NCBI GenBank assembly: GCA_903904755.1
Contig: CAIVDV010000015.1
Location: 62,001-126,000, forward strand
Direction: 5' to 3'
Length of the DNA: 64,000 nucleotides
Source: an uncultured Acidobacteriaceae bacterium
GTDB lineage: Bacteria > Acidobacteriota > Terriglobia > Terriglobales > Acidobacteriaceae
Shown here: piece after piece, positions 27,896 through 51,166 of the stretch
How positions within the stretch are numbered: the first letter of the stretch is position 1
Layout: every line of letters begins with the position of its first letter
Translations under genes and position numbers: made by a program
The notes under the pieces: model-generated
The model's input: the letters and a program-made list of their open reading frames with translations, nothing else
What the model was told of the DNA's origin: nothing
Database searches by the model: none

Positions 27896-28501
27896 ATGGC
27901 TCTTGGAATGATTGACTGGACGGAGTTCGATCGCGCCTCGGTGAACTCCCGTGCCCGCGTCTATCCAGTTGCCAGTTCCGCCCAGGAACAGGAGGGTACC
28001 CCGCCCTGGCAGGAGATTGCAGCTCGTACGTATAAGGACCTGCGAAACCGCCTCGTCCGCTTTCTCTGGAACCAGGGGCTCTCCACCGATGCCGCGGAAG
28101 ACGTCATTCAGGAGGCCTTTTTTCGCCTGGCCGGCCAGCTCCACGGTGGCGAGCAGATTGACAACCCATCGGCCTGGATCTTCCAGGTGGCGCACCACTT
28201 GTGTATGGACTACCACCGTGCGATTAGCCAGAGCCGCTCCAGAATGACCTCGGAGTTTGGCGCAATCGCCGAGCCCCTCGAATTCCGCACGAATCCGGAA
28301 TGGGTCTTTCTACAGAAGGAAAAGCAGGGACTGGTACGCACAGCCATGGTCCGACTGACACCTCAGCAGTGCCGCGGCTTTCAATTGCGCGCCTCGGGCC
28401 TGCGCTACAGGGAGATTGCCGCAGACCTGGGCGTGAGCGAGCAGCGCGCCATCCATCTGGTCAAGCGGGCGCTGGAGCGGCTGGGACGGATTCAACGATG
28501 A
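27896..28501 (+). CDS. ECF-type RNA polymerase sigma factor
   Basis: About 201 residues with sigma region 2 (YKDLRNRLVRFLWNQG, then DAAEDVIQEAFFRLAGQL and NPSAWIFQVAHHLCMDYHR) and region 4 (RLTPQQCRGFQLRASGLRYREIAADLGVSEQRAIHLVKRAL). Regions 1.1 and 3 are absent, as in the ECF group. I place the start at ATG 27896; ATG 27908 is an alternative, and the open frame upstream looks non-coding. No anti-sigma gene is adjacent. The next gene, a giant lipoprotein, begins 100 bp downstream on the same strand, so the factor is a natural candidate for controlling the surface-protein block that follows. That link is inferred from position. Confidence 0.88.
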   Translation: MALGMIDWTEFDRASVNSRARVYPVASSAQEQEGTPPWQEIAARTYKDLRNRLVRFLWNQGLSTDAAEDVIQEAFFRLAGQLHGGEQIDNPSAWIFQVAHHLCMDYHRAISQSRSRMTSEFGAIAEPLEFRTNPEWVFLQKEKQGLVRTAMVRLTPQQCRGFQLRASGLRYREIAADLGVSEQRAIHLVKRALERLGRIQR

Positions 28502-28601
28502 AGTAGCCGTCGGAAATCGATAAGGATGCGCTGTCCTGCGGTCAGGGCGGCCCAGATTGGGAAGCGGAAGCAAACAACCAAATGGATGGGCTCAGGGAGT
28601 G

Positions 28602-31600
28602 ATGGTTCATAAAGTTCAAAACAGCGATCCTGCACGGCCGCCGCAGCAGCATGGTACCGACTGCGCCTCCGAGCGCGCTTTTGCGTATGCCTCCTCTGCT
28701 GAGCGACTCATCCTGGCGATAGATCGCACCGCCGCGACGGCCGCCCATAGCCGGCGGCTCCGCCAAAAGGCTTTCACGACTCGTTTTGCGGGACGCGTCG
28801 CGGGTTTCGCCATCTTCGGCCTTGGGATGGCATCTTTCATCGGTTGTAACAGCAGTTCCAGCGTGCATGCGGGAGCCGTCGTCGTCTCCATTGCGGGCAT
28901 CACCACCAGCGGAAAGCCCGTCTCCATTGCCGCCGGCGGCAAGGCCACCGTCTCCATGAGTCCGGTCAACGATTCTCATGGGGCGGGCGTGGACTGGACA
29001 GCGATTTGCCTGGGAAACCCGGTCACCGGAAAAGCCACCGGCGGAGCCTGTGGAACCTTCTCACCGTCACACACGGCTGCGGGCGTTCCTGCCCTCTACA
29101 CGGCCCCTGCTCAGGTCCCCATCGGCAGTACGGTCACGCTCAGCGCCTCGGTCACCAGCGACCCATCCGCTACCAGCACGGCGGTCGCCACCATTTACGC
29201 GCCTGCCGTCTCCATCGCCTTCGCCTCCACCCCGCCCGCTTCCATCCAGCAGGGGCAGCAGGTCACGCTCAGCGCCCAGGTTACCAACGACAGCACCAGT
29301 GCCGGCCTCACCTGGTCAGTCAGTTGCGGCTCGGCCGCCGCAGGCGCCTGCGGAAGCTTCAGCAGCACAAGCGGCGCCACCACCATCTACACCGCGCCCG
29401 ACAACACCGTTGGCAGCCCGGTTACGATTACAGCGGCTTCCGTCGCCGTACCCTCTGTTACGGTCACCGCAACCATCACCATCAACCCAGCACCGGCAAT
29501 TTCGGTCGCCGTCGCTCCCGCCAGCTTTACCCTTGGCGCAGCGCACAACGGTGAGACCGCCAACCTGATTGCCACTGTTACGGGCGACAGCTCCGACGCG
29601 GGTGTGGACTGGTCCTTGCAGTGCACCAGTACCCTCGGCAACTGCGGCTCGCTCACCCCTGCCACCAGCGCCAGCGGCGCGGTCATTACCTACAAGGCGC
29701 CCCCAACTGTCCCCACCGGCGGCACAGTCATCATCACCGCCACGGCCCGCGCAAGCGAGGGCCAGCCCCATGTGCAGTCCGCCGTCACCACTGCCACCAT
29801 CACTTCCACCAAGACAATCTCTGTGAATGTCACCGCCCCGCCCAGCCTTACCGTGCAGGGCAGCACCACCCTGACCGCTACCGTGACCAACGATGACAGC
29901 GACGCCGGCGTCACCTGGACGGTTTCCTGTGCCACATCCGGCAAATGCGGCTCGGTTAGCGCCCCCACCGGCTCCAGTGGAGTCTTCACGGCGACCTACA
30001 CCGCGCCTGCCACCATCCCGTCCGGGGCGGTCGTAACCATCACCGCCAGCCCCATTGCAGCATCTCCGGGCGGTAATCCGGGCCTGGCGCAGACCACCAT
30101 CACGCCTGTGCTGCCCAGCATCACCTTCGGCACCCAGCCGCCGGCTACCATGACCGCCAACACCCGGTCGACTGTGAACGCCAAGGTTGCCAACGACGTT
30201 GCACCCGGCGGGGTCACCTGGTCAGTTGCGTGCGGAGCTGCCAACGCATGGGAGTGCGGATTTGTGGCGCCCTATCAGACTGCGAGCGGAGCCAACGCGG
30301 TCTACACCGCTCCCCCGATTGCCCCCTCTGGCCCGGTCACCCTCGTTGCCTCGGCCACTGCAACGTGCGTCCAGGATTCCTGCGCATCCTCGGTTTCGGT
30401 GCCGGTAACCATCGCGCCCGCCACGGCACTTTCCATCGGCTTTGTGCCTGCGCCGCCCACACAGATTGAGGCAGCCACGTCCGCGTATCTCAACGCGGCT
30501 GTGCAGAATGACTCCACCAGCGCGGGTGTCGACTGGAAGGTCTGCGCCAGTGGGTGCGGCTACTTTACCGTCACCCCGGCCATTCCTCCGAACCCCAAAA
30601 CCCCCACCTTGCCCACCATCCCCGCCGTCACTGCGACCACCGTGAAGGCCTGGCCCAATGGCGTGCCAATCCTCTACACCGCGCCGGCAACTCCGCCAAC
30701 TGACGGCCTTGTCGCCATCCAGGCAACCGCCCACGCAAACAGGTCGGCTATCGTTGTCTCGGCCGCAACCATCTCCACCGTGAACGGCGGGCCCACGCTC
30801 AATGGCACGGTTATGGCAGGAACCACCCCGGTGGCCGGCGCACAGGTGGCGCTGTACGCTGCGGGCAGCTCTGGCTACGGCTCAGCTTCCACGCTGGTTT
30901 CCCCCCCGGGGCAGAATCCGTTCGTCACCACCGATGCGCACGGGGTCTTCACCATCCCGGCCGGCTACGGGTGCCCCCAGGCCACCAGCCAAATGTACCT
31001 GGTTGCCATCGGCGGTACCACCGGCTCCAGCACTCCGAACTCCGCCCTGGCCATGATGACTGCGCTCGGCAGTTGCGGGGTGCTCAGCTCGTCGCCTGTC
31101 GTTGTCAATGAAGCCACCACAGTGGGCTCGGTCTGGGCACTGGCACCGTTTGCCGCCAACCCCCTCACAACCGGACTGAACAGCTACCTGAACATCGGCA
31201 CCAGCAGCGGCAACGCCACCGGCCTGGCCAACGCCTTTGCCGCAGTCAACAACCTGGTGGACATCTCCACCGGCCAGCCCCAGTTCAGCGTCCCTGCCGG
31301 CAACGCCACCGTGCCCTACGCGGAAATCAACATGCTGGCCGACATTCTGAATGCCTGCACGGCCACCGCCGGCGGACTGGCCGGGGACGGCACCGTGTGC
31401 GGAAACCTGCTCACGTCCGCCAATCCCTATCGCAACGTCAATGGACAGACGCTCTACACCGGCATCCCCACCGATACCCTGCAGGCATCGTTTGAGATTG
31501 CTCAAAACCCCGATTACAGCGCGGGCAGCGGCCCCAGCAACGTAACCGCAGCCATTGACGGAGCCGCGCTCTTCGCACTGGTTCAGCCCGGGGCGCCCTT

Positions 31601-32750
31601 CCAGCCACTTTTGAGCGCGCTGCCCTATGACTTCTCCGTTTCGCTGAACTTCACGGGCGGCGGGGGTCTGAGCCCAGCCAGCGGCAGCAACGCACTGGCG
31701 CTGGACTCCAGCGGAAACCTTTGGATTTCCAACTCGGCAACCAATAGCGTTACTGAATGGAACAACCTGGGAGCGCCCATCACTTCGCTCAGTGGCTACA
31801 CAACCTCCACCCTGGTTGCTCCCGGACCTATCGCCATCGATGCCTCAGGCTACGTTTGGATCTGCGGCCAAAACGGATTGACCCAGCTCAATTTGCTGGG
31901 AACGGAGATGGCGGACAGCCCCTTCTTTGGCGGGGGACTTACCACCGCCGGCTGCCAGAGCCTGGTGATGGACCCCTCCCAGAACATCTGGGCCGGCGGT
32001 GCGGAGAACCTGGCGAAGTTTGACCTTTACGGCAATCCGGTCTCGCCCGCGGCGGGCTATACCATCGCTGCCTCGCCGACCAACCACACCACCGTGCCGC
32101 TGGCCGGCGCGCTCGCGGTCGACCAGTCCGGCAATATCTGGGCCGGGGTCAACGCCCCCATCTACAACGGTTCGCTGGGCCTGGCGGAGTTGAACGGCGG
32201 CAGTGCTCTGCCCTATTACCTCAGCCCGCAGCCGGTTACCGGGTCTCCGTCAAACTTCGTCAACACCGGCGGCTATCCCACCGAGACGCAGATTGCCATT
32301 GACGCGGCCGGCAACGTCTGGGGCGCAGCCACCCAATCAACCTGCGCCCCCGGAACCCTCTTCAAGGTTCCTTCCTACAAAGGTACCGGCACCACGGACG
32401 CGGCCTCTTCCATCGCCTCCAACTCCGGCATCGATCCCTTCCGCTGCTCAGACGGAGTCGCAGTCGACGGTGCCGGGGTGATCTGGACCGCCAACGCCGG
32501 CGGTGCGGCAGATCCCCTGCTGACCCCGCCCAATGTCGGTGCCTACAACCCTTCCCTGCCGGCAAATACCTATGGGTACACCTCCGGCAGCCTGGCCAGC
32601 GGCCCCGTCAGTCTCTCCGTAGATGCCTCGGGGAACGTCTGGGTACTCCTGCATAACAACACCGTCACCGAATTCATCGGAGTCGGAACTTCGGCGGTCA
32701 CCCCGCTGTCATCGGCCGTGAAAAACAAAAAGCTCGGAGCAAAGCCTTGA
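28602..32750 (+). CDS. Giant lipoprotein: six Cys-paired Ig-like repeats plus C-terminal propeller-like region
   Basis: A 1382-residue secreted protein. The lipobox is FIGC (Cys82) after a helix; the 60 residues before it are unusually long and polar for a signal n-region. Residues about 90-740 contain six Ig-like repeats of 95-110 residues, each with the pattern V-ND..S.AGV.W.V.C....CG.F followed by YTAP..P.G..V.ITA; the two Cys of each repeat probably form a disulphide. Next is a carboxypeptidase-regulatory-like segment (LYAAGSSGYG). The C-terminal third has NHL-type units such as ALDSSGNLWISN, AIDASGYVWICG and SVDASGNVWVLL, suggesting a beta-propeller. ATG 28602 follows GGGAG. It is likely an outer-surface lipoprotein for adhesion or ligand binding. 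Confidence 0.85.
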   Translation: MVHKVQNSDPARPPQQHGTDCASERAFAYASSAERLILAIDRTAATAAHSRRLRQKAFTTRFAGRVAGFAIFGLGMASFIGCNSSSSVHAGAVVVSIAGITTSGKPVSIAAGGKATVSMSPVNDSHGAGVDWTAICLGNPVTGKATGGACGTFSPSHTAAGVPALYTAPAQVPIGSTVTLSASVTSDPSATSTAVATIYAPAVSIAFASTPPASIQQGQQVTLSAQVTNDSTSAGLTWSVSCGSAAAGACGSFSSTSGATTIYTAPDNTVGSPVTITAASVAVPSVTVTATITINPAPAISVAVAPASFTLGAAHNGETANLIATVTGDSSDAGVDWSLQCTSTLGNCGSLTPATSASGAVITYKAPPTVPTGGTVIITATARASEGQPHVQSAVTTATITSTKTISVNVTAPPSLTVQGSTTLTATVTNDDSDAGVTWTVSCATSGKCGSVSAPTGSSGVFTATYTAPATIPSGAVVTITASPIAASPGGNPGLAQTTITPVLPSITFGTQPPATMTANTRSTVNAKVANDVAPGGVTWSVACGAANAWECGFVAPYQTASGANAVYTAPPIAPSGPVTLVASATATCVQDSCASSVSVPVTIAPATALSIGFVPAPPTQIEAATSAYLNAAVQNDSTSAGVDWKVCASGCGYFTVTPAIPPNPKTPTLPTIPAVTATTVKAWPNGVPILYTAPATPPTDGLVAIQATAHANRSAIVVSAATISTVNGGPTLNGTVMAGTTPVAGAQVALYAAGSSGYGSASTLVSPPGQNPFVTTDAHGVFTIPAGYGCPQATSQMYLVAIGGTTGSSTPNSALAMMTALGSCGVLSSSPVVVNEATTVGSVWALAPFAANPLTTGLNSYLNIGTSSGNATGLANAFAAVNNLVDISTGQPQFSVPAGNATVPYAEINMLADILNACTATAGGLAGDGTVCGNLLTSANPYRNVNGQTLYTGIPTDTLQASFEIAQNPDYSAGSGPSNVTAAIDGAALFALVQPGAPFQPLLSALPYDFSVSLNFTGGGGLSPASGSNALALDSSGNLWISNSATNSVTEWNNLGAPITSLSGYTTSTLVAPGPIAIDASGYVWICGQNGLTQLNLLGTEMADSPFFGGGLTTAGCQSLVMDPSQNIWAGGAENLAKFDLYGNPVSPAAGYTIAASPTNHTTVPLAGALAVDQSGNIWAGVNAPIYNGSLGLAELNGGSALPYYLSPQPVTGSPSNFVNTGGYPTETQIAIDAAGNVWGAATQSTCAPGTLFKVPSYKGTGTTDAASSIASNSGIDPFRCSDGVAVDGAGVIWTANAGGAADPLLTPPNVGAYNPSLPANTYGYTSGSLASGPVSLSVDASGNVWVLLHNNTVTEFIGVGTSAVTPLSSAVKNKKLGAKP

Positions 32751-33574
32751 ACCTGAAATTGAGGACGACACCACGCATCAAAGCGAAGATTTCTGCGGCG
32801 GCGGCCGAGCGTTCGGCGCTCCGGCTTCTGGGCGCCATGTCGGTTGCACTGGCAGTCACGCTGTCTGGCTGCGGCAGCAATGTGGTTCCCATCAAAGTCG
32901 GCCCCATCACATTTACTGACTCCAACGGGAAGCATGTCTCCAAGCCGGAATCGTTGACCGCCGGCGCCTCCAACTCGATGGAGGTAACCGTTGCCAAGGA
33001 TGTCCAGTTGCTGGGCGTCAACTGGAGCGTTGCCTGCGGCAGCAAGCCGCCGACCGGCACACCGCTGCCTCCCGGAACCCCGGTGGATGCCTCCTGCGGA
33101 ACCTTTACGCCGGTTCACACCGCCAGCGGCCCGGTGCCGAGCTATGCCACCAGCGGGGCCGGGGTTGTCACGTTGTACACAGCGCCGGCAGCTCCTCCCA
33201 AGGAGGGCGTGGTCACGCTCTATGCGGCGTCCACTGCAGATCCCACCCGGTACTCGTACTTGACCCTGCCTATCGTCGGCGGAGCCATCGCAATCGAATT
33301 CGGTTCGGTCCCTCCCACCTCCCTTCAGGTGTCCACTACGGCAGTCTTCAAGGCCGTACTCACCAACGACTACGCCGCAGCGGGAGCCACCTGGAGCGTC
33401 ACCTGCGGGGTAAGCGATTGCGGCACCTTCAGCCCGCAGGTTACTTCCAGCGGAGTTGCCACCAGCTACCTGGCTCCGTCTGCGGTACCGCCGTCCGGTT
33501 CGGTAGTCATCACCGCTACCTCGGTCACCGACTCCACCAAGTCCATCAGCGCCACGGTTGCAATTGCACCCTGA
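32747..33574 (+). CDS. Lipoprotein with two Cys-paired Ig-like repeats
   Basis: A 275-residue lipoprotein with lipobox LSGC (Cys42) following a long Arg/Lys-rich n-region. It carries two copies of the same Ig-like repeat found in the upstream giant lipoprotein: VNWSVACG...SCGTFTP...LYTAPAAPP and ATWSVTCGVSDCGTFSP...YLAPSAVPP. TTG 32747 is the start: GGAG lies eight bases before it, and TTG overlaps the upstream TGA (TTGA), so the two lipoproteins are translationally coupled and probably act together at the cell surface. No enzymatic motif is seen. Confidence 0.85.
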   Translation: MNLKLRTTPRIKAKISAAAAERSALRLLGAMSVALAVTLSGCGSNVVPIKVGPITFTDSNGKHVSKPESLTAGASNSMEVTVAKDVQLLGVNWSVACGSKPPTGTPLPPGTPVDASCGTFTPVHTASGPVPSYATSGAGVVTLYTAPAAPPKEGVVTLYAASTADPTRYSYLTLPIVGGAIAIEFGSVPPTSLQVSTTAVFKAVLTNDYAAAGATWSVTCGVSDCGTFSPQVTSSGVATSYLAPSAVPPSGSVVITATSVTDSTKSISATVAIAP

Positions 33575-33683: not shown

Positions 33684-35543
33684 ATGAATCACACTGGAAG
33701 AATCTTCGGCGCACTGCTGCTTGGCATCGCCGTGGCCGGCGCTCAAGCCCAAACAGCCTCCAGCACAGAGAAAAAGCCCCGCGCACAGGCTGCCGCCGAC
33801 CAAAAGCTGCTTCTCGAACAACTGAGCCAGGAAGTTCAGCAGTTGCAGAAGACCAGCCGGAACTACGACCAGCTTCGCAAAGAGGTCGATGACCTGAAGA
33901 AGCAGTTGCAGGCCGCCAACGCGGCCGCTGCCGCTGCCGCTCAAACCGCGCAGCAAGCCAAGCAGGACCTGGCGGGCGTTGTCTCCCGCAATGACGAGGC
34001 GGTAACCAAGCTGCAGGACGCTGTCAGCACGATGAAGAGTGCCACCGCCTCAATCGCCGATACCATCCAGACCGGGCAAGCTGAGGTGAAGGCGCTGGAA
34101 TCTCCAGACGCGCTCCGCCTCAAGGGAATCTCCCTGACTCCAGGCGGCTTCATGGCCGGGGAAACCGTGTGGCGTCAGCGCGGCATCGGCGGCGACATCA
34201 ACACGCAGTTCAACGGCATCCCGTTTGCCGGGCAAACCGCCGGCCGCCTCTCGGAGTTCAACGCCAGCGCCCGCCAGTCGCGTGTCTCGTTCCTGGCTAC
34301 CGGGAAAATGCCCAGTTCCACTCTGCGCGGCTACCTGGAAGGCGACTTCCTCTCTGCCGGCACGACTTCCAACAATAACCAGAGCAACAGCTACACCTTC
34401 CGCCTTCGTCAGGCATGGGCCCAGGCCCAACTGCCCAAGGGCTGGGAGATTACAGCCGGCCAAATGTGGTCGCTCGCCACGGAGCTCAAATCCGGCCTGG
34501 CCAATCTCCAGGAAGCTCCCCCGCTTACCATCGACGCGCAATACAACGTCGGCTTCAGTTGGGCGCGCCAGTACGGCTTCCGCATCACCAAGAAGCTTGA
34601 CAACCATCTCTGGGTTGCGGCCAGCGTGGAAGAGCCGCAAACCCTCAATATTGGTGGACACAACCTGCCCACCATCGCCTATCAGCAGGCCGGCAATGGC
34701 AGCGGGCTTTATAACTCCACCGCCAACTACAGCTTCAACCTGGCACCCGATTTGCTCGCCAAGCTGGTCTACGAGCCCTCCTTCGGCCACTTTGAACTCT
34801 TTGGAGTTGGCCGCTTCTTCCGCGACCGCGTCTTCCCGAACGGTGCTGCGCCTCCGGGAGCCACCCAGCCCACCACTCCATCAGCCCTCGGTGCCTTTAC
34901 TTCCAAGGCTGCCGGTGGCGGTGCAGGCGCCAATGGCCGCGTCTCCCTCTTTGCCAAGACCCTCGATGTCGGCGCGCATATTCTCGTCGGCGACGGCATC
35001 GGCCGCTACAGCAACTCCACCCTGCCTGACGCTACCGCCCACCCGGACGGCTCTCTGGAACTGCTCACCGGCGGCTCCGCCCTGGCTTCGGCAGAGTGGC
35101 ATCCTGTCAAACGCTTCGACCTCTACGGCTACTACGGCGCTGAGTACGCCAAGCGTGCCTATTACAACACCGGTTACTTTGTGGTAACCCCCGGCCCGAC
35201 GCAGGGCCAGCCGATTCTGAGCGGCTACGGCGCCCCCAACAACCTCGTCTATGGCTGCTACACCGAGGTTCTCCCCGTGTCCTCGCCCAACGGTGGCGGA
35301 AGTGTCCCCGGAGCCGCCGCCAACTGCCAGGCCGACACCCGGAACATCCAGGAAGGAACGCTTGGCTACTGGTACCGCTTCTATCAGGGCCCCCGCGGCA
35401 CCTTCCAGCAGGGCATCCAGTACTCCTATGTGGTTCGTCACACATGGCTCGGAATCGGAGACCCGCTCACCGGTCTCAGCGGTTCCCCCAAAGCGATCGA
35501 CAACATGATCTTCACCTCGTTCCGGTACTACTTGCCCAAGTAA
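33684..35543 (+). CDS. Outer-membrane porin-like protein with N-terminal coiled coil
   Basis: The product has 619 residues. A signal peptide (GALLLGIAVAGAQA) is followed by about 100 residues of heptad-rich, Ala/Gln-rich coiled coil (LLLEQLSQEVQQLQK, then LRKEVDDLKKQLQAAN), then a 450-residue beta-barrel-like region of alternating aromatic strands ending in the aromatic-rich FTSFRYYLPK. A coiled coil before the barrel is known in trimeric porins, where it extends into the periplasm and may contact peptidoglycan or an inner-membrane partner. Substrate is unknown. The ribosome-binding site AAGGAG lies before ATG 33684. It follows the small lipoprotein by 109 bp and precedes the TonB-dependent receptor. 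Confidence 0.85.
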   Translation: MNHTGRIFGALLLGIAVAGAQAQTASSTEKKPRAQAAADQKLLLEQLSQEVQQLQKTSRNYDQLRKEVDDLKKQLQAANAAAAAAAQTAQQAKQDLAGVVSRNDEAVTKLQDAVSTMKSATASIADTIQTGQAEVKALESPDALRLKGISLTPGGFMAGETVWRQRGIGGDINTQFNGIPFAGQTAGRLSEFNASARQSRVSFLATGKMPSSTLRGYLEGDFLSAGTTSNNNQSNSYTFRLRQAWAQAQLPKGWEITAGQMWSLATELKSGLANLQEAPPLTIDAQYNVGFSWARQYGFRITKKLDNHLWVAASVEEPQTLNIGGHNLPTIAYQQAGNGSGLYNSTANYSFNLAPDLLAKLVYEPSFGHFELFGVGRFFRDRVFPNGAAPPGATQPTTPSALGAFTSKAAGGGAGANGRVSLFAKTLDVGAHILVGDGIGRYSNSTLPDATAHPDGSLELLTGGSALASAEWHPVKRFDLYGYYGAEYAKRAYYNTGYFVVTPGPTQGQPILSGYGAPNNLVYGCYTEVLPVSSPNGGGSVPGAAANCQADTRNIQEGTLGYWYRFYQGPRGTFQQGIQYSYVVRHTWLGIGDPLTGLSGSPKAIDNMIFTSFRYYLPK

Positions 35544-41322: not shown

Positions 41323-41457
41323 CCTGTGACCGCGCGCGCCGTCACAGCCCGCGGAAGAGCAAGCGGGAAAGGCAGAGGACCAGTCAACAGCGCCGGTGCA
41401 ACTTCCAAGCGACCGACGCAAAAGATTCGCAGCAGTGCTATCGAAAGGGTCAGGACC

Positions 41458-44400
41458 GTGAGATTGATTCCAGTGGAAGTTCAAACGAGTGTGGGTGCTG
41501 AGAAGCCGGCTTTTCGTGCCATTCAGCGAGTTGCTTTGTTGCTGATGACAACCACTGGGTTGCTGCTCGCTGCCGGATGCGGTGGCAGCGCCACCAAACC
41601 CGTCACCGCTACGCCCACTCTTACCCCTGGTGCCGGTGCCTATAAGTCCTCGCAAACGGTCACCATTGGCGATACGACCGCCGGTGCCGTGCTGTACTGC
41701 ACCACCGACGGCAGCACGCCCACTTCCTCGTCTACGCAGTGCACTGAGCCGGTTACGGTAGCCAAGAGCGAGACCCTCAGCGTTCTTGCGGTTGCGCCCG
41801 GATACAGCCCCAGCGCAGTCGTAACCGCGGCGTACACCATCAATCTGCCCGCCGCCGCCACCCCGGTTATCAGCCCCAACGGCGGAACCGTGAACGCGGG
41901 GCAGTTGGTCGCCATCACCGATGCCTCGGCAAACACCACCATCTACTACACCACGGATGGCTCCACGCCAAGTTCCACGAACGGTGCCCAGTACACAGCA
42001 CCAATTGTCGTTTCCGCTCCGGAAACAATCAGCGCCATTGCTGTCGGCAGTCAGTTCAGCCCCAGCAAAGTGGCAACTGCCACATTCAGCATCCTTTACC
42101 GGCCCGCGATTACCAGTCTTAGCCCCACCTCCGGCCCGGTTGGCTCCGCAGTCACCCTCACCGGCACCAACTTCGGCGCAACCCAGGGCTCCTCCACCGT
42201 AACCTTTAACGGCGCCAAAGCCACCGTCACCGCCTGGAGCGGCAGTTCCATCACCGCCGTTGTTCCGGCCGGCGCCACCACCGGCAACGTCGTCGTCACA
42301 GAAGGCGGCTTGGCCAGCAATGGTGTGGCCTTCACCGTTCTGCCCACCCCCACGGTTTCCGCCGTTTCGCCCGCTTCCGGCGCGGCAGGGGCTTCCGTCA
42401 CGCTCACCGGAACCCACTTCGGCACCACCCAGGGATCCAGCACAATCAGCTTCAATGGCACTGTTGCCACCGCAATCACAAGCTGGAGCAATACCTCCAT
42501 CACTGCACTGGTTCCGGCGGGGGCAACCACCGGGAGCGTCGTCGTCACGGTTGACGGAGTCGCCAGCGCCGGCACCGCCTTCACGGTTCTGCCCACCCCC
42601 GCAATCTCCGGCCTCAGCCTCACGTCTGCCGCCGTTGGTGCATCGGTCACCGTCAATGGATCCAATTTCGGCGCTACTCCCGGCTCAGTTACGATCAACG
42701 GCACGGTAGCCACCATCTCCTCCTGGACCGCATCTTCGATCACCTTCACCGTACCCGCAGGTGCCACCTCGGGCACCCTGGCAGTCAAGGCCAGCGGCAT
42801 CACGGTCAGCGGCGGCACCTTCACGGTCCTGCCAACCCCCACCGTCAGCAGTTTCAACCCCGCTTCGGGCGCAGTGGGTTCCACGGTCACCCTCACCGGC
42901 AGCAATCTCGGTGCAACGGCGGGCTCTGTGACCTTTAACGGCACCCCCGCCAGCATTTCCGCCTGGACCGCCACTTCCATCACCGTCACCGTTCCCAGCG
43001 GTGCCACCACTGGCACCCTGGCAGTGAAGGCGAGCGGCATCACCGTCAATGCGGGCACCTTCACCATTCTGGCCACGCCCACAGTCACAAGCCTCAATCC
43101 CGCCTCGGGCCCGGTCGGCTCAACCGTCACAATAACCGGCACCAACTTTGGCGCAACTCAGGGCACGGTCAGCTTCAACGGCACCGCGGCGACCATCTCC
43201 TCCTGGACCGCCACTTCCATCGCCGTCGTGGTTCCGGCCGGTGCCACCACCGGCAACGTCTCGGTCACCGTCAGCGGCGTCACTGTGAATGCGGGCGCCT
43301 TTACGGTTCTGCCCCGGCCCACCATCACCAGTCTCAACCCGGCAACCGGTGCCGCAGGTGCCACAGTCACCGTCACCGGCACCAACTTCGGCGCAACCCA
43401 GGGCACCAGTTCGCTCACCTTCAACGGCACGGCTGCCACCTCCATCTCAAGCTGGAGCGCGACTTCCATCACCGCAGTCGTCCCCAGCGGGGCCACCAGC
43501 GGCAGCGTAGTGGTCACGGTCAACGGTGTCGCCAGCAGCGGCACCGCCTTCACGGTTCTGCCCACACCGGCCGTCACCAGCATCAATCCCACCTCGGGCG
43601 CGATTGGCGCCACGGTCACCATCACCGGCAGCAACTTCGGCGCAACCCAGGGCACGGTCAGTTTCAACGGCACCGCGGCCACAGTATCCTCCTGGACCGC
43701 CACCTCCATCGCCGTGACCGTTCCGGCCGCAGCCACCACCGGCAACGTCTCGGTCACCGTCAGCGGCGTCACCGTCAACGCGGGCACCTTCACGGTTCTG
43801 CCAAGGCCCACCATCACCAGCCTCAACCCTGCTTCCGCAGCGGTCGGTGCCACGGTCACCATCACCGGCACCAACTTCGGCGCAACCCGGGGCACCAGCA
43901 CGCTCACCTTTAACGGCACTCCGGCAACCTCTATTTCAAGCTGGAGCGCCACTTCCATCACCGCGGTCGTCCCCAACGGTGCCACCAGCGGTAGCGTAGT
44001 GGTCACGGTCAGCGGTGTCGCCAGCGCCGGCACATACTTCACCGTTCCCGGAACCCCCGCCATTTCGAGCATCAATCCCACCGCCGGCCCAGTCGGAACC
44101 ACGGTCACCATCACCGGCAGCAACTTCGGCGCCACCCAGGGATCCGTCAGCTTCAACGGCACCGCGGCCAACGTCACTTCCTGGACTGCCACCTCCATCA
44201 CCGTGACTGTGCCCGCAGGCGCCACCACCGGCAGCGTGGCCATCACGGTCAGCGGTGTCACCGTCACCGGCGGCACCTTTACGGTCCTGGCCGTGCCCAC
44301 CATCAGCAGTCTCAATCCCACCTCGGGCGCAGTCGGCTCCACGGTCACCATCACCGGCACCAACTTCGGCGCCACCCAGGGCTCCAGTTCCCTCACCTTC

Positions 44401-47400
44401 AACGGCACTCCGGCCACTTCCATTTCAAGCTGGAGCGCAACATCCATCACCGCCGTCGTCCCCAACGGCGCCACCAGCGGCAACGTGGTCGTCACTGTCA
44501 GCGGGGTTGCCAGCAGCGGCACCGCGTTCACGGTCCTGCGCACCCCCTCCATTACCAACGTGAGCCCGACCTCTGCCGCCGCAGGCGCTACGGTTACCAT
44601 CACGGGCTCCAATTTCGGCGCGACCAGCGGGACCGTCGCCTTCAATGGCACCGCCGCAACCGTCTCTTCCTGGACTGCCAGCTCCATCGCCGTGACCGTG
44701 CCGACCGGCGCCACCACCGGCAACCTGGTCGTAACGGCCAGCGGAGTCGCGGTCAGCGGCGGTACCTTCACGGTTCTGCCCACGCCCACCATCACCAGCT
44801 TCACCCCAACTTCCGCAGCCGCAGGCGCAATCGTCACCATCACCGGCACCAACTTCGGAGCCACCCAGGGCCAGGTGACTTTCCATGGCACCAGCGCCGC
44901 CATCTCCTCCTGGAGCGCCACTTCCATTGCCGTGACAGTCCCGGCTGCGGCCACCACCGGCAACCTGGCAGTCTCAGCCAGCGGCGTAACGGTCAATGGC
45001 GGGACATTCACCTTGCTGCCAACGCCCACCGTCACCAGCCTCACCCCCACATCCGGCTCAGCCGGGGACACGGCAACCATTTCCGGCTCCAACTTCGGCG
45101 CAACCCAGGGCCAGGTCACTTTCCATGGCACCAGCGCCGCCATCTCCTCCTGGAGCGCCACATCCATCGCCGTGGTCGTTCCCAAGGGTGCCACGACCGG
45201 CCCTGTGGTCGTCTCCACAAGCGGAGTATCGGTCAATGCGGGCACATTTACCATCGTTGCCTCGGCACCCCCGGCACCTGTATTGGTCCCCGCGGGCGGC
45301 CTCACCACAGCCACCTATCCCGCTACGCTTTCCTTCACTCTCAGCGATACGGATGCGTCCGCCACGCTCTACTACACCACCGATGGCAGTACGCCCAGCG
45401 CAACCAACGGAACCGCGTACACCACCGCCGTCACTGTCAGCTCGACTGAGACGGTCACCGCCATCGCCATCGACGCGGCACTCTCCAACAGCAGCCCCTC
45501 CGTCTCGCAGTTGATGACGGTCGTTGAGGCGACGCCCACCTTCACACCCTCCGCCGGGCTGGTCGCTTCCGGCACTTCCGTCGCCATCCAGGATGCCGAC
45601 GCAACGGCGTCCATCTTCTACACACTCGATGGCTCCCCGGCCACACCGGCTTCTACCCCATACACGATTCCGCTCATCGTCACCGGCTCTGAGACCATCC
45701 ATGCCGTCGCCGTTGACACCAACCCAGGCACCAACTACACCCAGAGCGCGCAGGCTTCAGCAGCGTACGCAATCTGCACCAGCACCATCTGCGGCAATGT
45801 CGCCAGCGGAACCGCCCCCATCGCGGGCGCAACTGTCACGCTCTACTCCGCAGGCACAACCGGCTATGGCAAGGGCGCAAAATCCCTGACCTCGACAACG
45901 ACGGATGCCAGCGGCGTCTTCTCGCTTACCCTCGCCAAGTGCCCCGCAGCTCCGGCCGATCTGCTCTACCTGGTCGCCTCCGGCGGCTCCACAATCGGGG
46001 TCGGCTCTGAGCCCTCCATCGGCCTGATGACGGCTCTCGGCAAGTGCGGTTCCCTGCCGGCCAACGCCTCAGTCCGCGTCAATGAACTCACCACAGTCGC
46101 GGCAATCTACTCGCTCTCTGGATTCACCACTGCCAACGCTGGCACAACCGGAGTCGTCGTCGGTGTCTCTGCGCCGAGCACCACATGCACCAGTTCCGGG
46201 GTCAGCACCATGGGCAACGCGACCTGCAACTACACCGGCCTCGGCAACGCCTTCCTGACCCCCACCAATCTGGTCAACCCATCGTCGGGCGCGGCCCTCA
46301 CCACAACCGAGTTCTACTCTGGCACCGACCCCAACAACCTCAACGGCTGGAGCAGCTCCTACGGCGACTCCGCCGCTGCCTGCCCCGGCGCAAAGTGCCT
46401 GAGCCCCAACAATCCTGTTCCGGCGCCCGCGCTCAACACCAGCACCGCGCCCTTCCAGCGTGTGAACACGCTCGGCAATGTCCTCGCCGCCTGCGTGCAG
46501 AACCCGGCCAACTGCATCGCACTCTTCAGCCTGGCAGGCAACGCGTCAGACACGCTGCAGGCCGCGCTCTACATCGCCCACCACCCCGGCGCTTTCAGCG
46601 GAACTTCCGGTCTCTATTCCCTGATAACCTCACCCGCCGCAACCTTCACCCAGCCCTACGGACCGGCTCTCACCGCCGAGCCCAACGACTGGGCCCTCGC
46701 CCTCACCTTTACCGGTGCTGGACTCGGAGTCGATCCCCAGGTTGACTCCGCCGATGCGCTCACCAATCTCGGCCTTGCCATCGATGTCAATGGCAACGTC
46801 TGGGCCACCGCCTCAGCGCTGGACAGCAGCAACGTGGCGGGGATCGCTGTCGGTACCGTTGCAGGCTTTGATCCCCTGGGCCGTGCTCTCACTCCTGCAA
46901 CCTCGCTGGTCGGCGGAGCTATCGCCTACGACAGCACCAAGGGATACAGCAGCTACGGTGGCTATGGCCCAGATGTCCTGGCAAACGGCCAACCCGGTAT
47001 CTTTGGAGAGCCCAACTCGTTCTTCATCGATGCCAGCCAGCATCTGTGGATCAGCAACAGCTATCTCAGCAACGATTCTGCCGGTGGCTCCGAACTCACC
47101 ATCGCCAAAGCCTCCGCGCCGGGATCCAAAAACCTCGGCCCCACCGGAGGCAGCGGCAGCCCCAGCTTCAGTCTTCCAGATGCCGGCATCAGCCTGCTCG
47201 CAGACGCCAGCGGCAATCTCTGGCAAACCGCCAATACTGAGCTCCTCTACGAGTACGACTCGCTCGGCAACCTCGCTGCCTTCATCCCGGTAACGCTGGA
47301 TCCGTCGACCAAGGCCAACCTTATCGGCTTCTGCAACGCCACTTTCGATGGCAACGGCACCCTTTGGGCCGATGACTGCGGAACCAGCGGCAACGGCGGT

Positions 47401-47985
47401 CAGGTCTTTGCATTCTCTGATGGCTCTTCCGGCAACCCGCTGCTGGCCACCTACAACGGGGCGCTCACGCAAATCACCACCTCCGGCACTCTCGCCTCCG
47501 GAAGCGGTGGCAACGTCTACGCCTGCAACGCAACTGAGACCGGCTACCTGGTCTTTAACGTCGCCACCAGCACCACCGGGCCCGTCAATACCTTCACCCC
47601 GGCCAGCCATCGCTGCGGTCACTTCCTCACCGTCGATGGTGCCGGCCACGTCTGGTCTTATCTGAACACCGTCTCCGGCGGCGTCCTTGACGCAGTGGAT
47701 GCCAACGGGAACCAGCTCACTCCCAGCAACGGCCTTACCGCCTCCAGCAACGACGAAGTCAACGCCACCGGCCTGGGCACCTTCAATGAAACCGCCGGCG
47801 GTGGGCAGGGGGGCATGGCCATTGATCGTTCAGGAAACCTCTGGTTCCTGAACGGAGCTGCCGGCACCCTGAATAGCGGCATCGCCCCTGCAAACGCCCT
47901 CGTCGAGTTCATCGGAGTCGCGGCCCCCACCGTCTCCCCCGCTGCAATCGCAACCCAGAATGGCGCCCAGGGAACCCTTCCGTAG
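41458..47985 (+). CDS. Giant lipoprotein with 13 TIG repeats, chitobiase-type units and C-terminal propeller region
   Basis: About 2175 residues. The lipobox is LAAGC (Cys41). Near the N terminus are two Fn3-like chitobiase C-terminal units (CTTDGSTPT, YYTTDGSTPS). Thirteen tandem IPT/TIG repeats of about 80 residues follow, each starting P.I.SL.P.S...G..VTITGTNFGATQG. Two more chitobiase-type units (YYTTDGSTPS, FYTLDGSP), a carboxypeptidase-regulatory-like segment (LYSAGTTGYGKG) and six NHL-like units (AIDVNGNVWATA to AIDRSGNLWFLN) complete it. GTG 41458 follows AGGA and gives a normal signal peptide; a GTG at 41326 would add 44 basic residues and lacks a ribosome-binding site. It has the architecture of an extended surface stalk carrying a binding head. 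It is probably co-transcribed with the upstream genes. Confidence 0.85.
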   Translation: MRLIPVEVQTSVGAEKPAFRAIQRVALLLMTTTGLLLAAGCGGSATKPVTATPTLTPGAGAYKSSQTVTIGDTTAGAVLYCTTDGSTPTSSSTQCTEPVTVAKSETLSVLAVAPGYSPSAVVTAAYTINLPAAATPVISPNGGTVNAGQLVAITDASANTTIYYTTDGSTPSSTNGAQYTAPIVVSAPETISAIAVGSQFSPSKVATATFSILYRPAITSLSPTSGPVGSAVTLTGTNFGATQGSSTVTFNGAKATVTAWSGSSITAVVPAGATTGNVVVTEGGLASNGVAFTVLPTPTVSAVSPASGAAGASVTLTGTHFGTTQGSSTISFNGTVATAITSWSNTSITALVPAGATTGSVVVTVDGVASAGTAFTVLPTPAISGLSLTSAAVGASVTVNGSNFGATPGSVTINGTVATISSWTASSITFTVPAGATSGTLAVKASGITVSGGTFTVLPTPTVSSFNPASGAVGSTVTLTGSNLGATAGSVTFNGTPASISAWTATSITVTVPSGATTGTLAVKASGITVNAGTFTILATPTVTSLNPASGPVGSTVTITGTNFGATQGTVSFNGTAATISSWTATSIAVVVPAGATTGNVSVTVSGVTVNAGAFTVLPRPTITSLNPATGAAGATVTVTGTNFGATQGTSSLTFNGTAATSISSWSATSITAVVPSGATSGSVVVTVNGVASSGTAFTVLPTPAVTSINPTSGAIGATVTITGSNFGATQGTVSFNGTAATVSSWTATSIAVTVPAAATTGNVSVTVSGVTVNAGTFTVLPRPTITSLNPASAAVGATVTITGTNFGATRGTSTLTFNGTPATSISSWSATSITAVVPNGATSGSVVVTVSGVASAGTYFTVPGTPAISSINPTAGPVGTTVTITGSNFGATQGSVSFNGTAANVTSWTATSITVTVPAGATTGSVAITVSGVTVTGGTFTVLAVPTISSLNPTSGAVGSTVTITGTNFGATQGSSSLTFNGTPATSISSWSATSITAVVPNGATSGNVVVTVSGVASSGTAFTVLRTPSITNVSPTSAAAGATVTITGSNFGATSGTVAFNGTAATVSSWTASSIAVTVPTGATTGNLVVTASGVAVSGGTFTVLPTPTITSFTPTSAAAGAIVTITGTNFGATQGQVTFHGTSAAISSWSATSIAVTVPAAATTGNLAVSASGVTVNGGTFTLLPTPTVTSLTPTSGSAGDTATISGSNFGATQGQVTFHGTSAAISSWSATSIAVVVPKGATTGPVVVSTSGVSVNAGTFTIVASAPPAPVLVPAGGLTTATYPATLSFTLSDTDASATLYYTTDGSTPSATNGTAYTTAVTVSSTETVTAIAIDAALSNSSPSVSQLMTVVEATPTFTPSAGLVASGTSVAIQDADATASIFYTLDGSPATPASTPYTIPLIVTGSETIHAVAVDTNPGTNYTQSAQASAAYAICTSTICGNVASGTAPIAGATVTLYSAGTTGYGKGAKSLTSTTTDASGVFSLTLAKCPAAPADLLYLVASGGSTIGVGSEPSIGLMTALGKCGSLPANASVRVNELTTVAAIYSLSGFTTANAGTTGVVVGVSAPSTTCTSSGVSTMGNATCNYTGLGNAFLTPTNLVNPSSGAALTTTEFYSGTDPNNLNGWSSSYGDSAAACPGAKCLSPNNPVPAPALNTSTAPFQRVNTLGNVLAACVQNPANCIALFSLAGNASDTLQAALYIAHHPGAFSGTSGLYSLITSPAATFTQPYGPALTAEPNDWALALTFTGAGLGVDPQVDSADALTNLGLAIDVNGNVWATASALDSSNVAGIAVGTVAGFDPLGRALTPATSLVGGAIAYDSTKGYSSYGGYGPDVLANGQPGIFGEPNSFFIDASQHLWISNSYLSNDSAGGSELTIAKASAPGSKNLGPTGGSGSPSFSLPDAGISLLADASGNLWQTANTELLYEYDSLGNLAAFIPVTLDPSTKANLIGFCNATFDGNGTLWADDCGTSGNGGQVFAFSDGSSGNPLLATYNGALTQITTSGTLASGSGGNVYACNATETGYLVFNVATSTTGPVNTFTPASHRCGHFLTVDGAGHVWSYLNTVSGGVLDAVDANGNQLTPSNGLTASSNDEVNATGLGTFNETAGGGQGGMAIDRSGNLWFLNGAAGTLNSGIAPANALVEFIGVAAPTVSPAAIATQNGAQGTLP
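42102..45262 (+). repeat. Tandem array of 13 TIG-encoding repeats
   Basis: Thirteen units averaging about 243 bp repeat in tandem inside the giant lipoprotein gene. Adjacent units share long near-identical nucleotide runs around the GGCACCAACTTCGGCGCAAC box, so the array was probably expanded by recent duplication and may vary in copy number or be prone to mis-assembly. Confidence 0.85.
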
Positions 47986-48314
47986 GCCCCGCAACCCGCC
48001 CGTTTCCCACCACCGTACCCCGGCCGATCGCCACCTCTGGCGGTCATCCGGGGTACACAAATCAGGTCTGAAACACTCCCTTAACACCGTCATTCCCCGA
48101 TTGTGAATTGCTCGTGATTTCCCGCTCAGGAACAGGCCTTCCTCGTTGGGAAAACTGGCACCCTCCCGTCTCATACCCAGAGCGCTCAGAAGGCTCGGTC
48201 CGCTGCGGGTCGAGTGAATTTGAAGTCACGGCCACATGCTCTAGCGGCCATTTCCGGGACTGCAATGCAACAGCCCCCCCCGCGATAGCTTGCAGAACCA
48301 TGGAGCACAAAATA
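47986..48314. other. Gene-free spacer with a two-part hairpin
   Basis: About 330 bp without a credible gene. A long hairpin at 48015-48056 has a perfect outer stem (48015-48023 with 48048-48056) and a perfect-but-one inner stem (48026-48033 with 48038-48045). There is no T-run, but its place 30 bp after the giant lipoprotein stop suggests transcription termination or mRNA end protection. Confidence 0.55.
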
Positions 48315-50042
48315 GTGAAGAATCTTGTCAGAGCTCTGCTCATCCCAGCCATCGTCCTCTGCGCCCTGTCGAGTGCTCATGCACAGACCACGAAGTTCAA
48401 CGCAGTTGGCTCGTCGGCTATGTTCCTGGAACTTGGTGAAGCGGCCTACACCGCCAATTACAGCACCGTGGCCAATGCCGCCCCCGCCTGCGTCTGGTCT
48501 GGCGCCGGCGCCAAAGCCACTGACACCAGCACCGGCACCTCGCTGACCGACTCCGGTAATGCGTTTGTCGTTTGGGTTCCCGCAATCTCCGGCAACATCC
48601 TCGGCTCCACCGGCAAGGTCCTCGGGCACACCTACTATGCCTGCTCCGACGCGACCCAGCCCACCCCCACCAAGGTCTATGGCTATCTCCAGACAGACTC
48701 GGTGGTCGGCAACCGCTGCTTCTTCAACGCCATCAACTCGGCCTCGTGCACCCTCAGCTACCCCAGCACGACGCCCACCAACGCCAACCTGATTGCCACT
48801 GCCAAGAACCTCATCGTTGAGGTTCCGCTTCCGCCCTCAGTTGCCGCTACCCTGAACGGCCTGCCGAACGCGGCCGGCACCGACATCCGTCCTGAAGATG
48901 CCGAGTTTGCCACCACCCGCGCGCTCACCCCTTGCGGCGCCACCGAGTACACTTCCGGCGGCACCACCTACTCCATCGCACCGTTCCTCGGCCTCGGCTA
49001 CAACCCTGGCGACAAGATCCACGATGGTTTCGGCGCTGGCAAGAGCTTCAACGTCATCCCCTTCACCCTGTCGGCGTCCTACAACGTGCAGTCGGTCGGC
49101 ATTGACCCCATGATTGTCGCCATCAACAGCACTGACGCTGTCGGCACCGGCCTGAACGATACCCACATCACCTCCATCAGCAGGCTCCAGCTTGCCCAGT
49201 TCCTCGACGGTTCGGTCGGCTCCTCCGCCGCTCTGATTCCCGTGGGCATCGCGAACGTGGATCAGCCCGTCACCACCATCATTCGCGAGCCGCTCTCTGG
49301 CACCTACAACACCATGGAGTACAACGTTCCCGCCTCCCGGATGCTGCAGACCTCCCAGGATGTGGGCGTTCTCCAGCCCGCAGCCCAGCAGAACTGCTCC
49401 GGCAGCTCGGTTGGTTCCTACTCCCTCAACGCACCGGCGCAGGGTGAAGGCACCCGTATCCGCGCGATCGGCACAGGCCAGGAAATCAGCAAGATTCTCG
49501 CCACCAACGACTCGCTCGGTTATGCCTTCTGGGGTGTAACCAACTTCGCTGCTGCCGGTTCTTCCACCCGCTATCTCGCTGTGGACGGCATCGACCCGCT
49601 TCACGCCAGCTACCTTGGTGGTGCCATTCCGACCGCGGCCGGAACCACCTCCGCCACGCTGCTCAGCAACATCACCTTCTACAACCTCAAGAACGGCACC
49701 TACCCCATCTGGTCGATGGTTCGTCTTGTCACGGCAGACCCTGTCTCCGCAGCCAACGCCAAGATTCTGGCAATTGGTGCGGCCAAGTACTCCTCCCCAT
49801 CCACCAGCCCGGACTTCGTCTCCTACTACAACACCCTGGGTGCAGTGAACGTTCATGTTGTCCGTTCGCACTTCACGCCCCCCGGAATCAACTTCACCGC
49901 GACGCCTGCCAATGGCTTCTGCTCAGCTGCTGAAGTCGGCGGCGACGTAGGCGGCGTGATCATCCCCAACGTTCAGAACTTTGAAACCGCGTATTGCACC
50001 GACACCACCAGCACCACCGGCGTCACTGGCCGCCGCTACTAA
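48315..50042 (+). CDS. Secreted phosphate-binding-like (PstS-type) substrate-binding protein
   Basis: About 575 residues with a signal peptide (KNLVRALLIPAIVLCALSSAHA). The mature start FNAVGSSAMFLELGEAAY resembles the ligand-binding start of PstS-type proteins, where the Ser-Ser after Gly contacts phosphate. Later GEGTRIRAIG and DSLGYAFWGVTNFA resemble the second ligand lobe. Several Cys (CVW, YAC, CFF, SCT) suggest disulphides. No ABC permease or ATPase gene is nearby, so it may bind ligand without importing it. I choose GTG 48315 because GGAG lies nine bases upstream and the signal peptide then starts normally; ATG 48300 is in frame. A strong terminator follows. The family call is by eye and moderate. 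Confidence 0.65.
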   Translation: MKNLVRALLIPAIVLCALSSAHAQTTKFNAVGSSAMFLELGEAAYTANYSTVANAAPACVWSGAGAKATDTSTGTSLTDSGNAFVVWVPAISGNILGSTGKVLGHTYYACSDATQPTPTKVYGYLQTDSVVGNRCFFNAINSASCTLSYPSTTPTNANLIATAKNLIVEVPLPPSVAATLNGLPNAAGTDIRPEDAEFATTRALTPCGATEYTSGGTTYSIAPFLGLGYNPGDKIHDGFGAGKSFNVIPFTLSASYNVQSVGIDPMIVAINSTDAVGTGLNDTHITSISRLQLAQFLDGSVGSSAALIPVGIANVDQPVTTIIREPLSGTYNTMEYNVPASRMLQTSQDVGVLQPAAQQNCSGSSVGSYSLNAPAQGEGTRIRAIGTGQEISKILATNDSLGYAFWGVTNFAAAGSSTRYLAVDGIDPLHASYLGGAIPTAAGTTSATLLSNITFYNLKNGTYPIWSMVRLVTADPVSAANAKILAIGAAKYSSPSTSPDFVSYYNTLGAVNVHVVRSHFTPPGINFTATPANGFCSAAEVGGDVGGVIIPNVQNFETAYCTDTTSTTGVTGRRY

Positions 50043-50067
50043 CCTGTTCCTGAAACCCGGAACTCCT

Positions 50068-50110
50068 GGGCAGATGCGGGAAAAACATTCCGCATCTGCC
50101 CATTTCTCTT
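50068..50110 (+). terminator. Rho-independent terminator
   Basis: A perfect 12-bp stem (50068-50079 with 50090-50101), a 10-base loop and a T-rich tail, 26 bp after the substrate-binding protein gene. Confidence 0.85.
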
Positions 50111-50167
50111 CCCAATATCCAAGTGCCATTTCCTATCTTCCAAGACAAACCCACCGGAGTCGGTTGC

Positions 50168-51166
50168 ATGTATCGCTTCACCCTATCGTTGTTCGCAGTC
50201 TTCCTCGTCAGCCTGGTTTCTCTCTCCGCCCAGGTGCCCGCCCCCGTTGCGCCCGCCTCTGCCCCAACCCAGCCCGCAGGAGCCGCGTCTCTTGCCTGGG
50301 GCCATGAGAACTGGGGTGCCCTACCCCTCGCCGCCAGCGGATTGAACACCTCCAGATACGTCGCCCTGGTCCTGAGCAAACACGACGAAGCCAACTACAC
50401 CCGCGAAATCGTCCGCCTGCAGTGGCGCGCCGCCGATCCCGTCGATATCTACATCCTGCTGCCGCACAACGTCACCCGCCCCGCAGCCATCGTCTATCTC
50501 TACGACTATCGCTTTGACTCCGACCGATTCCGCGACGATGCCTGGTGCACCCGGGCCACCAAGGACGGCGTGGCTGCTATCGGCTTCACCACCGCCCTTT
50601 CCCTGGAGCGCACGCGCAATCGCCCACTGAAGGAATGGTTCGTCTCAGAACTTCAGGAAGCCCTGGGCACCACCACGCACGACGTGCAGATGATCTTGAA
50701 TTACCTCTCCTCCCGCGGTGACATTGACCTGGGCAGAATCGGCATCTTTGGCCAGGGCGCAGGTGGCGCCGTGGCCCTGCTCGCCGCCGACGTAGACCCC
50801 CGCATCCAGGCTATTGACCTGCTCAATCCCTGGGGCGACTGGCCCGATTGGCTCAAATACTCCCGCCAAATCCCCGACGAAGAGCGCCCAGACTATCTCA
50901 CCCCCGAGTTTCTTGGCCGGGTCAAGAATCTTGACCCGCTGCTCTCCATCCCCCGGCTCACCACCCGCCACCTGCGCATCCAGCAGGTCCTGGACGACAC
51001 CGTCACTCCGTCCCAGGCCAGAGACAAGATCGCCGCCGCCGTCCGCGCGCCCCAGCTCCTCGCCCGCTTCAACGACACCGCAGCCCACGCGGCAAGCTGG
51101 CGCAAGTCCGGCCTCTCCGGCTGGCTCATCGAGCAGCTCACAGCCACGCAGCAACCCAAACCCTGA
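50168..51166 (+). CDS. Exported alpha/beta-hydrolase-fold protein lacking the usual nucleophile
   Basis: A 332-residue protein with a signal peptide (MYRFTLSLFAVFLVSLVSLSA). The fold is recognisable: VDIYILLPHNVTRPAAIVYLY (strand and oxyanion region), GRIGIFGQGAGGAVALL at the nucleophile elbow, and LDDTVTP toward the acid position. The elbow reads G-Q-G-A-G where hydrolases have G-x-S-x-G, so the catalytic Ser is missing and the protein may bind and not cleave. It stands alone between terminators. ATG 50168 fits the signal peptide; the open frame 15 codons upstream is leader. Confidence 0.75.
   Translation: MYRFTLSLFAVFLVSLVSLSAQVPAPVAPASAPTQPAGAASLAWGHENWGALPLAASGLNTSRYVALVLSKHDEANYTREIVRLQWRAADPVDIYILLPHNVTRPAAIVYLYDYRFDSDRFRDDAWCTRATKDGVAAIGFTTALSLERTRNRPLKEWFVSELQEALGTTTHDVQMILNYLSSRGDIDLGRIGIFGQGAGGAVALLAADVDPRIQAIDLLNPWGDWPDWLKYSRQIPDEERPDYLTPEFLGRVKNLDPLLSIPRLTTRHLRIQQVLDDTVTPSQARDKIAAAVRAPQLLARFNDTAAHAASWRKSGLSGWLIEQLTATQQPKP

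Follow-up and report, generated by a model that had tools for sequence, protein, structure and literature searches.

Acidobacteria, which rank among the most abundant bacteria in soil, encode numerous Oar-type receptors, and little is known of what most of these carry or how they are controlled. A stretch of DNA from an uncultured member of the Acidobacteriaceae (assembly GCA_903904755.1, contig CAIVDV010000015.1, positions 62,001 to 126,000; this whole stretch of 64,000 nucleotides is called the window below, and coordinates refer to it) holds such a receptor gene in a series headed by an extracytoplasmic function (ECF) sigma factor. What does this sigma factor control, and what purpose do the genes that follow it serve? 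A first reading of the sequence (the original prediction) described nine co-oriented genes encoding the sigma factor and then mostly exported products. Gene coordinates and family searches bear this out: the nine genes, closely spaced on one strand, occupy 27.8-51.2 kb, about 23 kb. The best explanation of the locus as a whole, to which we give a probability of about 0.6, is a self-amplifying, sigma-controlled outer-membrane receptor locus. Its elements are listed here, LP1 to LP4 being lipoproteins.

27473..27497, forward strand: predicted ECF-type promoter P1; exact motif match, 5' of the sigma gene
27791..28501 (a start at 27896 is also possible), forward strand: ECF sigma factor; Pfam Sigma70_r2 (3.6e-9) and NCBIfam TIGR02937 (7.5e-19); full-length orthologues 33-41% identical
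28502..28601, forward strand: site of the anti-sigma gene of relatives, absent here; a membrane anti-sigma gene of about 590 amino acids (aa) stands there in four relatives
28602..32750, forward strand: LP1, giant lipoprotein of about 1380 aa; repeat immunoglobulin-like (Ig-like) N-terminal part, propeller-like C-terminal part; Reg_prop match; lipobox FIGC; syntenic orthologues 45-54%
32747..33574, forward strand: LP2, lipoprotein; lipobox LSGC; orthologues; 4-nt overlap with LP1
33684..35543, forward strand: coiled-coil putative porin; 65-70% identity in syntenic relatives
35743..39849, forward strand: Oar-type TonB-dependent receptor; PF13620 and PF25183
39859..41322, forward strand: LP3, lipoprotein; lipobox ICAC; partner-like gene directly 3' of Oar, adjoining Oar also in fused-sigma modules
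41326..47985, forward strand: LP4, giant IPT/TIG-repeat lipoprotein of 2219 aa; 13 IPT/TIG stretches plus chitobiase-C/Fn3-assoc repeats (Pfam); lipobox AAGC
48145..48169, forward strand: predicted ECF-type promoter P2; one mismatch; about 130 nt 5' of the PstS-like ATG
48300..50042, forward strand: PstS-like exported phosphate-type binding protein; profile match to PstS1 (4exl); model compared with the PDB
50123..51166, forward strand: exported alpha/beta-hydrolase-fold protein, a predicted pseudoenzyme; nucleophile Ser replaced in all 18 homologues

A predicted locus-specific promoter

The original prediction had proposed that a shared ECF promoter might lie upstream of 28602, 33684, 35743 and 48315. 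Spaced word pairs were sought de novo in 27 upstream regions taken from the five loci under comparison. A single family of overlapping pairs emerged, present in up to 6 regions, whereas ten shuffled sets never exceeded 4; its sites have the form GTTGGGAAA-N11-TCCGT. The window has an exact copy at 27473 and a copy with one mismatch at 48145, and shuffles of the window gave none for the corresponding pattern. Across the bacterium's own genome (4.2 Mb, 97.5% complete), these sites, 5' of the sigma gene and 5' of the PstS-like gene, are the only two at up to one mismatch. The shared promoter thus exists, and it stands where predicted at 48.3 kb; none is found at 28602, 33684 or 35743. (The start given as 48315 for the PstS-like gene proved to be an internal GTG, the ATG being at 48300.) Promoters at P1 and P2 alone agree with a single long transcript that begins at 27.47 kb and a second start inside the block.

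The exact motif precedes all five orthologous sigma genes, two of which were not used for discovery, and only about 0.02 exact sites per genome are expected by chance. Paracidobacterium acidisoli 4G-K13 has two exact sites, 5' of the sigma gene and of LP4, and one weaker site elsewhere; in Acidobacteriaceae bacterium ZG23-2, allowing at most one mismatch yields a single site, 5' of the sigma gene, and a two-mismatch site stands just 5' of the PstS-like gene. Two metagenome-assembled genomes (MAGs) also have an exact site 5' of sigma and, because they were found after the motif, provide independent confirmation of it. Same-family genomes without an orthologous sigma either have no sites (G044, G102, G066) or have two weak ones, elsewhere (G056), and where the sigma orthologue is lacking, the Oar and PstS loci of the genome are free of such sites. 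A diverged second copy of the locus in P. acidisoli is likewise without the motif, which would be in keeping with a sigma that reads a different sequence. As a spacing control, the motif with a 12-nt spacer had no locus matches in the genomes; with three mismatches allowed, matches in the window were at chance level, so that only strong sites count. The canonical ECF pattern GGAAC-N-CGT was rejected as a candidate, having three scattered matches, none of them in the window.

The link between sigma factor and targets, which had been an inference in the original prediction, is now well supported in silico. Judged from the distribution of the motif, the sigma factor very probably controls the block, and would itself read the motif; the layout implies autoregulation from P1, with an internal boost at P2. 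Read-through from the upstream trpE gene is unlikely because a hairpin followed by a T-run, seen in the sequence at about 27028-27062, lies just 3' of the trpE stop. Within the block, LP1 and LP2 overlap by 4 nt (32747/32750), Oar and LP3 are 9 nt apart (39849/39859) and LP3 and LP4 3 nt apart, so the overlapping or near-overlapping ends noted earlier are real. An Rfam scan of 27.0-51.3 kb gave no matches, and scans for sigma-70 promoters and terminators stayed at chance level. About 500 nt around P1 (27250-27750) are richer in A+T than the surroundings (49% GC vs 61-64%), and a long untranslated leader precedes the sigma gene.

Gene order, probable insertion site and the missing anti-sigma gene

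The complete series sigma, LP1, LP2, porin, Oar, LP3, LP4, PstS-like, hydrolase-like is found on one strand in two other genera, represented by P. acidisoli 4G-K13 (G035) and ZG23-2 (G117), at different genomic sites. A scan based on an alignment of the sigma sequences and run over 84,980 species genomes added just two further orthologous loci, in the MAG sequences JAATGG010000274 and JAATFM010000116, a count that is a lower bound as the pattern scan of these genomes may miss diverged relatives. Both MAG loci read sigma, anti-sigma, LP1, LP2, porin up to the sequence end, JAATFM010000116 continuing with Oar, so the first half of the order is kept there as well. The second P. acidisoli copy runs LP4, sigma, anti-sigma, LP1, LP2, porin, Oar, LP3, with a sigma 35% identical and without PstS-like and hydrolase genes. 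Conservation in two further genera puts the order beyond chance, and on these comparisons the nine-gene series is not accidental. Conserved order and a shared promoter were the tests that the original prediction had set for itself, and it passes both. The reading as chance neighbours, or as genes driven by unrelated promoters, could appeal to gaps of 110-315 nt that leave room for other promoters, while the chance-level sigma-70-like sites speak neither for it nor against it; it is already contradicted by the conserved order at different genomic sites, the locus-specific promoter and the tight couplings, and we regard it as hardly credible.

Two genes outside the locus frame it:

25431..27005, forward strand: trpE, left flank; identified by Pfam; marks the probable insertion site
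51262..52167, reverse strand: periplasmic FecR-like protein, right flank; its gene is close to trpE in G102 and G044

In G102, of the same genus, the block is absent: the trpE stop and the FecR-like gene end lie about 30 bp apart, and trpE directly faces the pair formed by the FecR-like gene and a glutamine amidotransferase gene. In G044, which also lacks the block, about 1 kb separates trpE from the FecR-like gene. Horizontal acquisition of the block between these two genes is probable; loss in both relatives is possible. Because the base composition of the block carries no foreign signature, the case for acquisition rests on the empty site and on patchy presence. The right-flank FecR-like protein has 301 aa, stands beside a trpG-type amidotransferase and is kept next to trpE in the genus; it has no Pfam match, and its resemblance to FecR was judged by eye.

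One gene of the four relatives is missing in the window. This gene, of about 590 aa, lies between sigma and LP1 in all four of them and in the second P. acidisoli copy. Its product carries an HxxxCxxC motif close to the N-terminus, crosses the membrane once and has a periplasmic part of about 450 aa. HxxxCxxC with a single transmembrane segment, the mark of zinc-binding anti-sigma factors, recurs in all 21 members of the family. One member exceeds the Pfam zf-HC2 cut-off, and the solved structures nearest to the family profile are the anti-sigma factors ChrR and DdvA, at E values of only 0.04-0.1. In the window 100 nt separate the sigma stop from the LP1 ATG. A remnant of the anti-sigma gene was looked for between sigma and LP1 and none was seen; neither does the 97.5%-complete genome hold a homologue. 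As the relatives carry the gene, and the window genome has neither homologue nor remnant, the orphan sigma is most simply explained by loss, and sequence comparison makes it highly likely that the anti-sigma gene was lost in the window lineage. Such a natural loss is a ready-made test of constitutive activation.

The original prediction held that the composition of the locus matched no known operon. This was too strong: with the anti-sigma gene of the relatives included, the plan is that of a sigma/anti-sigma/TonB-receptor/lipoprotein locus, as in FecIRA or the sigma-SusCD loci of Bacteroidota. By analogy, the locus is a known plan made from different protein families. As in FecI/FecR/FecA, an ECF sigma gene stands beside a membrane anti-sigma gene (in the relatives) and a gene of TonB-receptor type, and the sigma-dependent promoter, in silico, lies at the locus. 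Unlike FecIRA, the anti-sigma factor belongs to the zinc-binding HxxxCxxC family, not to FecR, and the window has none; the receptor has a carboxypeptidase-regulatory N-terminal domain and no STN domain, and there are no iron genes. The Bacteroidota sigma/anti-sigma-SusC-SusD loci (PMC3878776, PMC8115612) likewise join a TonB transporter, an adjacent surface lipoprotein and large further lipoproteins, and in them the periplasmic part of the anti-sigma factor contacts the SusC-like porin (PMC3878776). The present locus differs in that LP3 lacks a SusD domain, hydrolases are missing, the lipoprotein families are unrelated and the phylum is another. We read it as an acidobacterial counterpart of either kind, apparently with a phosphate-type binding cassette attached.

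In the mechanism that we propose, the sigma factor would direct RNA polymerase to P1, its own promoter, and to the internal P2, the output being Oar, LP3, the giant surface lipoproteins, the porin and the phosphate-type binding protein together with the catalytically dead hydrolase as its partner. The four relatives keep the ancestral form, in which the membrane-spanning zinc-binding anti-sigma factor would hold the sigma factor until a signal in the periplasm released it. The Oar receptor, with ligand at Oar/LP3, is the likeliest source of this signal, and the freed sigma would amplify the block. In the window, which has no anti-sigma gene, the sigma factor might be constitutive, or limited by autoregulation or low basal expression, or by its own N-terminal extension.

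Receptor, lipoproteins and the PstS-like cassette

The receptor has the make-up that defines Oar-type proteins, a CarboxypepD_reg domain (PF13620, 1.7e-17) followed, after a weak Plug match, by the Oar barrel (OMP_b-brl_4, PF25183, 1.1e-148). The claim that no transporter accompanies the genes is right for the inner membrane; it does not extend to Oar, itself of the TonB-dependent-transporter type. We take Oar to be the signal input and infer that TonB-driven import is the function. By analogy with the systems above, signalling of the receptor type together with import stands somewhat better than even.

LP3 has no Pfam match and no SusD-like structural match, and a search of solved structures gave no sequence match to TbpB or other identification. 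Its model (mean predicted local distance difference test score, pLDDT, 70; predicted template modelling score, pTM, 0.77) was compared with the PDB, and the best eight matches were all TbpB, with E values down to 5.5e-6 and template modelling scores (TM-scores) of about 0.22. TbpB is itself a surface lipoprotein that partners a TonB receptor, and the match is worth following because the LP3 gene adjoins Oar, as a lipoprotein gene does in TbpA/TbpB. The likeness, seen in a model, is a good lead, not a result.

The main rival reading, and in our view an unlikely one, has Oar working outward, in TonB-energised secretion or display of the PstS-like protein, the pseudo-hydrolase or the lipoproteins. 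The Oar of Myxococcus xanthus is needed for PopC secretion and works in Escherichia coli (PMC11658791); nearly all products of the block are exported, the PstS-like and hydrolase-like genes track this Oar clade, and in Pseudomonas, too, one ECF sigma regulon covers a receptor and a secretion system together with a phosphatase that is secreted, PA0688 (PMC2729926). What the Myxococcus system has in common with the present locus is the Oar-type receptor; here there is no protease or ExbBD neighbour, and the partners are a sigma factor and lipoproteins. A sigma/anti-sigma pair beside Oar fits a sensing receptor, and other routes to the surface are available to most lipoproteins. PUMA3/VreI of Pseudomonas, considered as the family of the locus, was set aside as an analogy only.

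The two giants described originally, LP1 and LP4, hold their place and invite another reading, of an adhesive or matrix-like surface layer with the giant Ig/TIG and propeller lipoproteins as main product and Oar and the porin as accessories. Together with LP2 these repeat proteins make up about half of the coding length, and giant NHL proteins also end the fused-sigma modules described below. We consider this reading improbable: what the different modules have in common is sigma/anti-sigma-Oar-LP3 rather than the LP1/LP2 repeats, and an adhesive role for the PstS-like cassette is not evident. The porin claimed earlier is a putative one: a search of solved structures matched no known porin, and the length, signal peptide and conserved N-terminal coiled coil stand as its basis. 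Its family is common, in 92 of 120 genomes of the bacterial family.

The PstS-like protein has no Pfam match as a single sequence, but its identity is agreed upon by fold and profile. The profile finds PstS1 (4exl), and the 41 best PDB matches of the model (mean pLDDT 70, pTM 0.78) are all phosphate-binding proteins or their mutants. Both the fold and the R..SG motif of the phosphate site are present: in REPxSGT, which aligns with RxxxSG of PstS1, the R, E, S, G and T are invariant in 17 homologues, and with them the phosphate-site residues R329 and S333-G334-T335 (numbered from the ATG). The companion hydrolase was thought to look inactive, and the nucleophile is indeed missing throughout: the column that the profile places on the catalytic Ser of a lipase holds Gly in 17 and Asn in 1 of the 18 homologues, so the GxSxG of an active enzyme is lacking. 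By its sequence the protein is a family-wide pseudoenzyme.

Among the 120 family genomes the PstS-like gene occurs in 19 and a strong hydrolase match in 21, the 19 all falling within the 21 (18/18 when the own genome is excluded, p ~2e-19, the genomes being treated as independent though related). The pair usually adjoins an Oar gene of one clade, which has 100/100 support and takes in Oar genes from three sources: the window with its syntenic relatives, the PstS/hydrolase loci and the fused-sigma LP3 loci. This constant pairing of phosphate-type binding protein, dead hydrolase and one Oar clade makes phosphorus the first cargo candidate. The phosphate-repressed PusCD of Flavobacterium is an example of such a locus given over to phosphorus (PMC8115612). 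No PstCAB is held in the locus, and a phosphate-bearing ligand as cargo is the weakest of our propositions, a doubtful one. In genome G046 (L147:8493-15737) a PstS-like domain and LP4-like repeats are naturally fused in one open reading frame (ORF) of 2414 aa, which speaks for a functional link between these two.

Several findings weigh against a sigma-controlled receptor locus as a whole. Oar lacks the STN signalling domain in the Pfam search, so signalling from receptor to anti-sigma would need a different contact; the TM-scores between LP3 and TbpB are near 0.2, with no match in sequence; and the locus holds no TonB/ExbBD, inner-membrane transporter or phosphatase. PstS/hydrolase/Oar sets also occur in about 13 genomes without this sigma, so that the cassette does not depend on it.

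The sigma/anti-sigma-Oar module elsewhere in the phylum

The anti-sigma family also comes in a single-chain form: proteins of about 870-1010 aa in which the same periplasmic part is combined with a sigma-like region, HxxxCxxC and one transmembrane segment. Such chains, used beside a TonB receptor in many modules of the relatives, resemble IutY, a single-chain sigma/anti-sigma factor that acts in siderophore surface signalling in Pseudomonas putida (PMC8999054); they differ from it in sequence family, and the sigma factor of the window is separate and unfused. We examined the neighbours of 21 anti-sigma family members in readable loci, with ORFs called mechanically and Oar assigned by an iterated profile. 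Three lie in the expanded locus and one at a contig end; in 17/17 others Oar comes next, on the same strand. In L180, L181, L184, L185 and L186, Oar is followed by LP3 and then by a giant protein of 1400-2070 aa. The order sigma, anti-sigma, Oar is also found in three other families of the phylum.

It is an even bet whether the Acidobacteriota possess a trans-envelope signalling class of their own, with a zinc-binding membrane anti-sigma factor, often fused to sigma, driven by Oar through its carboxypeptidase-regulatory domain instead of STN; the window would then be a horizontally moved member without the anti-sigma factor. The recurring sigma/anti-sigma-Oar-lipoprotein unit, with its promoter sequence, offers a direct route to the signals and substrates of these receptors.

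P. acidisoli (L180-L183, L131, L192) has at least six fused sigma/anti-sigma genes, each with an Oar gene after it. The C-terminal ends of the giants that follow LP3 have two hydrophobic stretches flanking a basic patch and an internal lipobox-like TGCGG, as if the proteins were tail-anchored:

L181:11086-16950, post-LP3 giant with such a C-terminus
L184:11654-17872, the same
L185:4157-8344, the same
L186:732-6638, the same
L180:2155-6669, the same

A separate, recurring arrangement is divergent: in L132, L135, L137, L138, L140, L142 and L143, transcription of further ECF sigma genes runs away from an adjoining frame, which the iterated Oar profile matches (775-955 aa where complete).

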